Shown here: piece after piece, positions 36,677 through 62,270 of the stretch
Numbering within the stretch: the first letter of the stretch is position 1
How the letters are laid out: the number at the start of each line of letters is the position of its first letter
Origin: Psychrobacillus vulpis
GTDB taxonomy: Bacteria; Bacillota; Bacilli; Bacillales_A; Planococcaceae
Direction of reading: 5' to 3'
Length of the DNA stretch: 64,000 nt
Assembly: GCF_006861825.1 (NCBI RefSeq)
Contig: NZ_VDGI01000006.1
Coordinates: 62,001 to 126,000 of the forward strand
Position numbers and translations under genes: made by a program
The notes under the pieces: generated by a model
Database searches by the model: none
What the model was told of the DNA's origin: nothing
The model's input: the letters and a program-made list of their open reading frames with translations, nothing else

Positions 36677-38341
36677 TTACATTTCGACGGGAGCTTTTAT
36701 CCCGAGTAACCTAAGGGCTTCCTCAAGTACAATAACAACACACTGAACAATTGAAACACGGTAAGAAGTATAACTAGAATCTTTCATAACCTGAACATTT
36801 CCATAAAAAGAATTAAATGATTGTGCTAAATCTATAGCATATTTGGCTACTAATGATGGATCATATTCTATGGCTGCACGTTGAATGACGAAAGGAAATT
36901 GTTGTAGTGATTTAATAACATCCCATTCATAGTCGTTAACGACTGTGACTTGGAAGGTATCTACGCTTTTAACCTTTCTTAAAATAGAGCATGCTCTTGC
37001 GTATGAATATTGAACGTATGGCCCAGTTTCTCCTTCTGTTTGGAGCATTTTTTTTAAATCAAATTCAATATCATGCTTTCGATGTTGTTTTAAATCACTA
37101 AAAATAATTGCTCCAACACCGACCACTTTAGAAACTTCTTTTTTATTCGTTAATTGAGGATTTTTTTCTTCGATTGTTGTCTCTGCTAATTGAATTGCCT
37201 CATTTAATACCTCTTCTAATAAAACAATCTTTCCTTTACGAGTCGAAAGCTTCTTACCCTCTTTTAAAATTAAACCAAATGGAATATGCTGAATAGTTTC
37301 AGACCATTCATACCCCATATTGCCTAAAACTTTCTTAATTTGAGCAAAGTGCAAACTTTGTTCATTTCCAACTACATACAAAGATTTAGCAAAATCATAT
37401 GTTTGTTTTCGATTAATAGCTGCCGTAATATCTCTTGTAGCATACAAAGTCGCTCCGTCGGATTTTTTTATGAGGCAGGGAGGTATATTTTCTCCTACTT
37501 CTACTACAAGCGCACCATCAGATTCTATTAATAGATTTTTGTCTAATAACTCCTGAACGATCGAATCCATTTTGTCGTTATAATATGCTTCACCTTGAAA
37601 TGAATCAAAAGATACCCCAAGCAAATCATATATTTTTTGAAATTCATTTAACGATTCTGATCGAAACCATTTCCAAAGTTCTAATGCTTCCGGATGACCG
37701 TCTTCTAACGATTTAAAAGCAGCTCTTCCTTTGTCATTTAGAGAGTCGTCATTTTCAGCTTCTTCATGAAAACGAATATAAAGATTTAATAATGTTTGAA
37801 TAGGGGCTTCTTGAACTTTCTTTTCATCTCCCCATAAACGATAAGCTACTAGTAGTTTTCCAAATTGCGTGCCCCAGTCACCAAGGTGATTGATTTTAAT
37901 AGGTTGATACCCGTTTTTCTCAAGTAATAAAGAAATTGAATTTCCAATTACAGTAGATCTCAAATGCCCCATGGAAAATGGCTTTGCAATATTAGGTGAT
38001 GACATGTCAATCGTTACTACTCCACCAGCCCCTAAATTGGAAGAACCGTATTGTTTCCCTTGATTGTGGATGGTAGTTAATGTGGAATAAGCAAATGTAG
38101 ATCTTTTCATAAATAAATTTACGTATCCATTTACAGCTTCCACTTTTTCAATGTATTCACTGTGAATATTTCCAGCAAGTTCCTGTGCAATTACATTGGG
38201 AGATTTTCTTAGCTTTTTAGCAAAGGGAAAGCAAGGAAGGGCGAAGTCACCTAAGTGAGCATAAGCAGGTATTTCAATCATGTTTTCTTCAATCAACTCA
38301 GATGTGAAGTTTTGCAGAATGTCTAATACTTTCATTTTCAT
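36677..38341 (-). CDS. argS: Arginine--tRNA ligase
   Basis: 554 residues, close to B. subtilis ArgS (556). ATG 38341 is chosen because AGGAGG lies eight bases upstream; longer readings run into the T-box terminator. The class I signatures are present: the HIGH-like FSMGHLRST within SSPNIAKPFSMGHLR and the KMSKS equivalent KKLSTRKGKIV, plus the C-terminal DALR anticodon-binding domain (ETGPYVQYSYARACSIL). It charges tRNA-Arg with arginine. Expression is controlled by an Arg T-box leader. T-box control of ArgS is found where a second argS copy exists in some Bacillus; whether that holds here is unknown. Confidence 0.93.
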   Translation of the reverse strand: MKMKVLDILQNFTSELIEENMIEIPAYAHLGDFALPCFPFAKKLRKSPNVIAQELAGNIHSEYIEKVEAVNGYVNLFMKRSTFAYSTLTTIHNQGKQYGSSNLGAGGVVTIDMSSPNIAKPFSMGHLRSTVIGNSISLLLEKNGYQPIKINHLGDWGTQFGKLLVAYRLWGDEKKVQEAPIQTLLNLYIRFHEEAENDDSLNDKGRAAFKSLEDGHPEALELWKWFRSESLNEFQKIYDLLGVSFDSFQGEAYYNDKMDSIVQELLDKNLLIESDGALVVEVGENIPPCLIKKSDGATLYATRDITAAINRKQTYDFAKSLYVVGNEQSLHFAQIKKVLGNMGYEWSETIQHIPFGLILKEGKKLSTRKGKIVLLEEVLNEAIQLAETTIEEKNPQLTNKKEVSKVVGVGAIIFSDLKQHRKHDIEFDLKKMLQTEGETGPYVQYSYARACSILRKVKSVDTFQVTVVNDYEWDVIKSLQQFPFVIQRAAIEYDPSLVAKYAIDLAQSFNSFYGNVQVMKDSSYTSYRVSIVQCVVIVLEEALRLLGIKAPVEM

Positions 38342-38344
38342 TTG

Positions 38345-38735
38345 AATTCCTCCTAAAAATAAAAAAGCCCTCGTCTCATTAAAAATGAGACGAAAGCTTA
38401 ACTTCCGCGGTACCACTCAATTTGCCTATTTCGGCCACTTTCTCTATAACGGTGAGTCTCCGGCTTTTTTTACTATATAAGTGTAAACTTTTCTATATAG
38501 TATATGTCCAGCTCCAGACGCCATCTGCTCGAGGTCAAATGCCTGTTTCTTGCGGTGGCTGAGGGAACTGCCTCCTCAGAAACCGGCATTTGCTTGTCGC
38601 AGCAAGGCGGCGTCTGCCGCTTTTCTAACAAGCATCTCCAAAGTGCGTTTCACAACTCTTCATAACTAGGCTCACACCATCCCTAGCTCGCTTTGTATTT
38701 CGATATTGTTACTCTCTTCATCTAAGATATTGTAT
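38345..38735 (-). promoter_or_regulatory. T-box riboswitch (Arg, specifier CGC) interrupted by a dispersed repeat
   Basis: On the minus strand Stem I is readable: GAAGAGAGTAAC (K-turn, 38708-38719), AAAGCGAGCTAGGGATGGTG and GAGCCTAG (apical part), then specifier CGC (38645-38647) followed by ACTTTGGAG. The T-box AGTGGTACCGCGG ends at 38405-38417, preceded by the Stem III region CACCGTTATAGAG...GGCAAATTGAG. The terminator CGTCTCA / TGAGACG with TTTTTT lies at 38362-38393. Uncharged tRNA-Arg should stabilise the antiterminator and permit argS transcription. Between Stem I and Stem III sits a GC-rich repeat (38508-38625). Confidence 0.85.
38508..38625. repeat. Dispersed GC-rich hairpin element inside the T-box leader
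   Basis: Begins GTCCAGCTCCAGACGCC and ends GGCGTCTGCCGCTTTTC. The arms CCAGACGCC/GGCGTCTG and CAAATGCCTGTTTCT/AGAAACCGGCATTTG pair, giving a ~115-base self-contained hairpin. Its ends (GTCCAGCTCCAG..., GAAAAGCGG) resemble a repeat family widespread in Bacillales intergenic regions; that comparison is from memory. Confidence 0.8.
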
Positions 38736-38738
38736 TTG

Positions 38739-38767
38739 AATTTATCAAATTGCAGAGAAGAAGTCAA
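38739..38767 (-). promoter_or_regulatory. Sigma-A promoter of the argS leader
   Basis: TTGACT, 17 bases, TAAATT on the minus strand, about 15-20 bases ahead of the first Stem I bases. This supports the whole 400-base leader, repeat included, being transcribed. Confidence 0.7.
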
Positions 38768-53307: not shown

Positions 53308-53335
53308 TTAGATGCATTTGTAATTGAATAAATGA

Positions 53336-53422
53336 CTGCTAGGGGAGCCTTTTTAGGCTGAGACACATCTTGGATGTAAACCCTTTGAACCTGATCTAGT
53401 TAATACTAGCGGAGGGAAGCAG
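53336..53422 (+). promoter_or_regulatory. TPP riboswitch (THI element)
   Basis: The conserved core is present: P1 CTGCT...AGCAG, GGGGAGCC with AGGCTGAGA, and ACCCTTTGAACCTGATCTAG followed by TTAATACTAGCGGAGGGA. It binds thiamin pyrophosphate. A terminator (CCGCTTTCC / GGAGAGCGG with TTTTTT, 53469-53498) follows, so TPP should switch transcription of the thiamin-salvage genes off. Confidence 0.95.
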
Positions 53423-53468
53423 CTGGAACCCTACTATCGTGTGTTTAGTTTAACTATGTAGAAAACAG

Positions 53469-61654: not shown

Positions 61655-62270
61655 AATCTGTTCATTGTAGAGGAGGGCAATGACTCCTGTGGGAGTTGCT
61701 TGAGTCTTGGACAATGGAGGGGGAATAGAGAGGGTACTGAAAAATTGTCTGTTTTTTAAGATAAATACTTTTTTTATTTCTAGAAATTCGTTGAAAAAGG
61801 CGACACTCCTGCGAGAATAGCGTTAGTCGAAGACCCCGCAGCAAAGCGAGGCCGCTGAAAAACTCTATTACGAATTTATTCATGATAAATATTTGATGTG
61901 ACTATATTGCACACTATAGGATTTAGTACGGCGGCGTGAGACTCCTGTGGGAAAGCGAGACAGCCGAGACCCCGCACGAAGCGTAGCGCAGGAGGAGGCT
62001 CGGCGCTCGCCCACGGAAAGGGAACAGAGCCGTGATAAATCCAGTTTGAAAGTCTTTTTTGCGGAGCTTTCCGGGAGAGCAGATATTTATCAAAAAAATT
62101 ATGAGAAATTCAGTTTTTCAGTGGCCTCCGGAAAGGGAGCCGTTTCAACGATTTTCTTATTAATTGGACTACTGGATAACCCATCTGGCATGGTCGATTT
62201 TATAGATGCCCTCGAGTATAGAGCCCGAAGCGGTTCAAGCAACGCCAGCGGAAAGCTCCGGAAAACCTAA
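61655..62270. repeat. Cluster of at least five GC-rich element copies and fragments
   Basis: Fragments at ~61670-61720, a second-subtype copy at 61795-61866 (GGCGACACTCCTGCGAGAAT...), a first-subtype copy at 61930-62025 (GTGAGACTCCTGTGGGAAAG...), and fragments near 62120-62155 and 62215-62265. Copies are more mutated here than near 4428, so they look older. Confidence 0.75.

Follow-up and report, generated by a model that had tools for sequence, protein, structure and literature searches.

The leader of argS2 in Psychrobacillus vulpis raises the question of how an extra segment of about 156 nt, which matches a dispersed repeat, came to lie within a T-box riboswitch, and whether the switch around it would still work. 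The locus was examined within a 64,000-nt stretch of the genome, here called the window (positions 62,001 to 126,000 of contig NZ_VDGI01000006.1). The first-pass annotation of the window had described an argS T-box, otherwise complete, that was split by a dispersed repeat, and had suggested running a T-box covariance model on the minus strand. That model (Rfam RF00230) matched minus strand positions 38733-38383 at 96 bits (gathering score 93, E = 8.4e-20); the alignment was complete (model positions 1-219) with a span of 351 nt, of which 151 nt stand as an extra segment opposite nine model positions in the Stem II loop. BLAST returned 17 matches in the same genome, the query itself included, and the description was thus borne out in both its halves. 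The parts of the leader are collected in Table 1. Its antiterminator and terminator form a competing pair, the K-turn at the base of Stem I is covered by the overall Rfam alignment alone, and the TTGAC of the promoter-like site is also visible by eye in the leaders of relatives.

Table 1. Features of the argS2 leader and gene in the window.
Feature	Position	Strand	Basis
Promoter-like TTGACT (38767-38762), 17 nt, TAAATT (38744-38739)	38739-38767	minus	Site search: 1 found, 0.9 expected by shuffles; weak alone
Specifier CGC (Arg)	38645-38647	minus	Codon fits downstream argS2
Stem II base, 5' strand GCUU	38630-38633	minus	Rfam alignment and leader alignment
GC-rich structured repeat, 123-nt core unit	38505-38627	minus	R1 match at 125.8 bits (partly circular, this copy being one of the 11 that built R1) and BLAST
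AT-rich hairpin TACTATATA...TATATAGTA, tail of the element	38471-38502	minus	BLAST rows and predicted fold
Stem II base, 3' strand AAGC	38463-38466	minus	Rfam alignment and leader alignment
Stem IIA/B with F-box CCGUUA, sequence CCGGAGACTCACCGTTA	38447-38463	minus	Rfam alignment and direct reading
Stem III	38422-38438	minus	Rfam alignment and direct reading
T-box sequence TGGTACCGCGG / UGGUACCGCGG (antiterminator)	38405-38415	minus	Rfam alignment and direct reading
Intrinsic terminator, 16 pairs then T run	38361-38399	minus	Terminator search
argS2, second arginyl-tRNA synthetase, 554 aa	36677-38341, ATG at 38341	minus	Directly downstream of leader

A further, distant argS (26-32% identity) is carried on contig C12 of the same genome, which makes argS2 a second copy; in B. 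cereus ATCC 10987, according to the available part of PMC2494555, one of three argS genes is T-box-regulated. Genes for tRNA-Arg(acg) were detected in the P. vulpis genome. Pairing of the CGC specifier with this tRNA would presumably need inosine at position 34. The T-box bulge UGGU (window 38412-38415) is common to all eight Psychrobacillus argS2 leaders, and the discriminator base is G in both tRNA-Arg(acg) genes that were read (L189 and L190), with which UGGU makes only a G-U wobble and no standard pair; as the bulge is the same in the seven relatives, this mismatch does not stem from the insert. Leaving aside the pairing of bulge and discriminator, the sequence features tested mark the argS2 leader as a T-box except for the S-turn of Stem II, which is typical of the class and not universal.

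The insert had been assigned to the linker between Stem I and Stem III, a placement that has to be given up: both the Rfam alignment and the leaders of relatives put it in the loop of Stem II, with the clamp GCUU/AAGC kept. The same comparisons also dismissed a reading of the segment as a normal Stem II. The repeat itself had been recognised correctly, but its extent of about 118 bp (38508-38625) is corrected here to a core of 123 nt at 38627-38505, and the TACTATATA hairpin that had been listed separately turned out to be the tail of the same element (38502-38471). Several BLAST matches extend into this AT-rich tail, and its start can be recognised by eye in six of the 17 aligned rows from the own genome, the window included; at the level of sequence, the GC-rich hairpin and the AT-rich one belong to a single element. 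The best other copy in the own genome shares 88% identity across query bases 13-154 (E = 3.4e-45), far beyond chance, and the nearest copy overall, in G009, is 91% identical (E = 2.7e-47). Over the insert there was no match to the Bacillaceae-1 RNA (RF01690) at its gathering score, no promoter-like site was found on either strand, and terminator-like sites were absent from the sense strand, with a weak one on the opposite strand; a plasmid search gave no match. The insert is known from one genome, that of the one strain of the species covered by the analysis.

At the site of insertion, AAAAGC flanks the insert on both sides, and TAGAAAAGC is common to the 5' end of the element and the short Stem II of relatives, so that the two origins are indistinguishable and a target duplication would be masked. 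The shared TAGAAAAGC may have guided the insertion. By eye, the ends of the element share GCGCC/GGCGC. The label "mobile-like" given to the repeat agrees with its copy number and spread, while the target duplication that such a label would lead one to seek is not demonstrable at this site.

A covariance model of the repeat, R1, was built on 11 copies including that of the window. It found 30 matches in the own genome at E 0.001 and 31 at E 0.01, and matches in all 19 Psychrobacillus genomes covered, from 3 in G008 to 117 in G011. Under stricter filters the repeat was present in 88 of 151 genomes sampled across the family and in 12 of 19 genera, the own genus included. In G011, G012 (103 matches) and G002 the copies are arrayed head to tail, recurring about every 125 bp, and truncated copies are found besides these arrays. 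Among 56 distinct matches, 94.5% of cells pair and 29 of 32 base pairs have changed on both sides, values that none of 500 shuffles reached, while slid versions of the structure pair in 34-46% of cells; an alignment fitted to a structure favours pairing and related rows inflate such counts, yet the gap is still large. The window copy retains 30 of the 32 pairs, and 33 of the 56 matches retain more. At gathering scores, Rfam placed no family on the repeat unit save the surrounding T-box.

By coordinate comparison, one of the 31 own-genome R1 matches lies inside a T-box, among 29 T-boxes listed of the 31 in that genome, and an Rfam scan of 20 of the 30 own-genome copy loci gave a T-box match at the window locus only. 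Copies on the opposite strand lie directly 3' of T-box terminators at L132/L162 in G012 (where, by reading, the T-box precedes a cysE-like gene), L163 in G009 and L137 in G016. T-box leaders sometimes adjoin the repeat, and the window is the sole case found in which the repeat sits inside the sensing part; further repeat-bearing T-boxes could be missed, since Rfam scores fall when an insert is long. Fragments were also seen by eye at the ends of L174, L179, L181, L185 and L188, beyond the T-box terminators and on the opposite strand. RF01690 matches were found inside or beside copies of the repeat at L250 (1545-1611), L163 (301-367) and both L133 and L151 (1647-1713), and for this reason the RF01690 family may be a nesting repeat in its own right, dispersed like this one. 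The argS2 leader's span of 351 nt is the longest among the T-box matches listed of 156 in six genomes, followed by 317 and 300 nt. These two unusually long T-boxes, L158 (G000:C1:283669-283985) and L159 (G009:C1:3583637-3583936), held no repeat copy visible by eye, and the gene after them begins with what we take to be the start of a methionyl-tRNA synthetase. Three similar tandem T-boxes were seen at L184 (G000:C1:281130-281893).

Among the 19 Psychrobacillus genomes searched, seven further ones carry argS2 at 77-82% protein identity, and the argS2 leaders of P. soli, P. lasiicapitis and other named Psychrobacillus are the same as those compared here. In G014 the gene is in two pieces (L034/L037, L092), with a frameshift around query residues 325-329. 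The comparison with relatives' argS leaders proposed by the first-pass annotation gave a clear result: all seven are T-boxes above threshold (100.4-113.2 bits), and the full insert is absent from every one of them. The distance from specifier to F-box is 201 nt in the window as against 38, 45, 45, 46, 47, 69 and 74 nt in the relatives. Seven of the eight leaders, that of the window included, open Stem II with GCUU and close it with AAGC, G008 being the one that differs; likewise CCGGAGACTCACCGTTA of Stem IIA/B is identical in seven, again with the window, and one base off in G008. Trees of argS2, rebuilt without the frameshifted G014 row and without two Sporosarcina rows with stops, leave the branching of the window gene among two Psychrobacillus groups unsettled.

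The S-turn motif GAA...AGTA is found in none of these eight leaders. It is present in all nine distant-type argS leaders of other Psychrobacillus genomes, in all three from Paenisporosarcina, in 11 of 16 from the Sporosarcina group, and in 18 of 19 measured leaders of other genera, a count for which 9 of 28 such leaders were dropped for having no recognised anchor and L089, probably mis-cut, was scored as lacking the motif. A pattern match in G003 vanished under tighter spacing. The change from a GCUUUUUUGAAUGAAGUAGAAAAG-like stem to GCUUUUUAGAAAAGC looks, in sequence, like a simple loss of the S-turn, and, since the motif is absent from all eight argS2 leaders, the insertion site was probably already relaxed beforehand. 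The suggestion that the insert had harmed Stem II or IIA/B is not upheld, IIA/B being unchanged and the S-turn being absent from insert-free relatives as well. The S-turn stabilises the codon-anticodon pair, and glycine T-boxes without Stem II are explained by a strong pair, as set out in the part of PMC7583486 available to us. By analogy, Arg T-boxes may also be able to do without an S-turn, and its loss would perhaps be tolerable here because CGC and its anticodon are GC-rich, as in the glycine T-boxes; many other CGC leaders retain the S-turn.

We consider it probable that the locus is a transcriptional argS2 T-box with a dispersed structured repeat in its Stem II loop, tolerated in a permissive arm, and that the switch works as predicted from its parts. 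A T-box that is complete and above its gathering score despite the insert counts for a tolerated insertion. Loss of the S-turn would have made the Stem II arm a permissive landing site, into the loop of which one copy of the repeat would then have inserted. The repeat would project as an oversized, self-contained arm, and uncharged tRNA-Arg would still pair with the CGC specifier and the T-box bulge and so select the antiterminator. The insert is predicted to fold on itself, as had been supposed (-62.7 kcal/mol on its own, z = -5.3), with about 50.5 expected pairs within it in the ensemble and 4.4 that reach the rest of the leader. The minimum-energy pairs outside the insert are identical with and without it, and the minimum-energy fold is in neither case the canonical T-box fold.

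A switch damaged or shifted by the insert, its arm hindering the docking of Stems I and II or delaying transcription, with argS2 left silent, always on or under weak control, seems to us unlikely. In other T-boxes Stem II helps the tRNA to bind, according to the part of PMC7583486 available, the score of the window T-box is the lowest of the eight (a long gap in itself costs score), and imposing a set of canonical helices requires 7.9 kcal/mol with the insert and 5.7 without, a penalty 2.2 kcal/mol greater; all three would fit such damage. The flanking switch, however, is without visible decay: over alignments of 153 and 125 columns flanking the insert, the window has two private differences (substitutions or gaps at columns invariant in the other leaders), as against 7 in G008, 4 in G016, 1 in G005, 9 in G009, 5 in G003, 8 in G010 and 3 in G014, the counts for G005 and G014 being lowered by the close likeness of their two leaders. 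So few differences argue against decay of the flanking switch, unless the insertion is very young, which would leave the same trace; a Stem II lacking the S-turn is, moreover, shared with the seven insert-free relatives and thus counts against damage. The opposite idea, that the repeat was exapted and that the giant Stem II does something useful, such as pausing transcription, offering a site to an RNase, protecting the leader or making a further contact with tRNA, strikes us as improbable. It would accord with the fold kept across copies by both-side changes and, in 30 pairs, by the window copy, and with a longer Stem II in two more relatives, G009 and G003. That covariation nevertheless spans copies at unrelated sites and is uninformative on the argS2 site, most matches (33 of 56) retain more pairs than the window copy does, and none of the seven relatives has the full insert at the site. 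It is very improbable that the insert is a separate gene for a small or structured RNA whose overlap with the leader is coincidental: covariation this strong and units of even length, about 123 nt, would suit such a gene, whereas the many copies, the tandem arrays and the truncated copies suit a dispersed repeat better, and the unit has neither an Rfam match at gathering scores nor a promoter-like site on either strand.

The age of the insertion bears on the same choice. We give little credence to an old event in the ancestor of several Psychrobacillus species, of which the other leaders would be deletion products, even if the argS2 trees do not settle the branching of the window gene and two relatives offer some likeness to the element. 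In the 38-nt Stem II of G009, 17 of 18 bases match the 5' end of the element, starting at its first base; in this comparison of seven stems against 21 copies, a single shuffle out of 400 did equally well. For the short Stem II of G010 the uncorrected p was 0.03, by way of TAGAAAAGC, and the remaining stems gave 0.13 (G014) to 1.0, so that G003, G005, G014, G016 and G008 are without a significant match, which speaks against common descent from a full insert. Short Stem IIs with TAGAAAAGC had been tried as remnants of the element, and are accounted for by the Paenisporosarcina S-turn strand AGUAGAAAAG; the 43-nt Stem II of G003, tried as a remnant of the AT-rich tail, was equalled by 174 of 400 shuffles (p = 0.435). 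At 91% and 88% in DNA, the copies nearest to that of the window exceed the 77-82% identity of the argS2 proteins, which fits a fairly recent spread of the repeat and tells against an old insertion. Returning to the tolerated insertion that we favour, the Stem II of G009 resembles a short piece from the 5' end of the element, and this match means that the element may have struck this site in two species. A wider version of the proposal, which we put forward tentatively as a possibility short of an even chance, is that the argS T-box Stem II, once freed of the S-turn contact, is a place where insertions and expansions recur (the repeat here, a fragment in G009, an unrelated expansion in G003), with the GCUU/AAGC clamp holding all of these out and the switch still working.

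Compared with transcriptional T-boxes of RF00230, the argS2 leader has the same order of elements, specifier, UGGN bulge, terminator and downstream aminoacyl-tRNA synthetase, and differs in a Stem II that lacks the S-turn and carries a dispersed repeat of about 156 nt in its loop. The statement that T-box linkers are normally short, made in the first-pass annotation, was too strong: in the available part of PMC7583486 the Stem II region varies from about 10 to 200 nt and insertions occur in every T-box domain. Stem II is the variable part in those T-boxes as in ours, which is unlike them in holding a copy of a genome-wide repeat. The repeats bcr1-bcr18 of the Bacillus cereus group, as described in the accessible part of PMC3446304, are likewise short, intergenic, present in many copies and often transcribed in UTRs; bcr1 is called B. 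cereus-group-specific by a title cited there, whereas the present repeat occurs in Psychrobacillus and across its family, and the likeness is one of description only. Judging from the parts accessible, "mobile attenuators" (PMC2965389) and BOX elements with possible T-box motifs (PMC10969869) are also dispersed elements which come to lie in attenuation leaders; these bring a terminator or motif with them, whereas the argS2 repeat entered an existing switch and is free of terminator-like sites on its sense strand.

In the open-licence literature, searched mostly by titles and the starts of abstracts, we found no paper describing a dispersed repeat within a T-box and none pertinent on argS T-boxes or on repeats in riboswitches; by title, none of the papers listed on repeats in Lysinibacillus, Sporosarcina or Planococcaceae concerned the repeat of the argS2 insert. 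What is new here is the identity of the insert and the set of orthologues without it, insertions in Stem II as such being already known. The locus amounts to an experiment of nature on the amount of foreign RNA that the Stem II arm of a well-studied riboswitch can carry, and the eight orthologous leaders make the role of Stem II variation directly testable. If the wider proposal on recurrent insertion is true, a T-box would naturally accept a foreign RNA module of 150 nt in this arm; if the switch works, a Stem II that is very short or some ten times longer would be tolerated, at least with a GC-rich specifier. The case illustrates how regulatory RNAs can grow by taking up dispersed repeats, and it draws attention to a strongly covarying repeat family without an Rfam match at gathering scores. 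Elsewhere in the window, a TPP riboswitch was found on the plus strand at 53331-53434 (82.6 bits).
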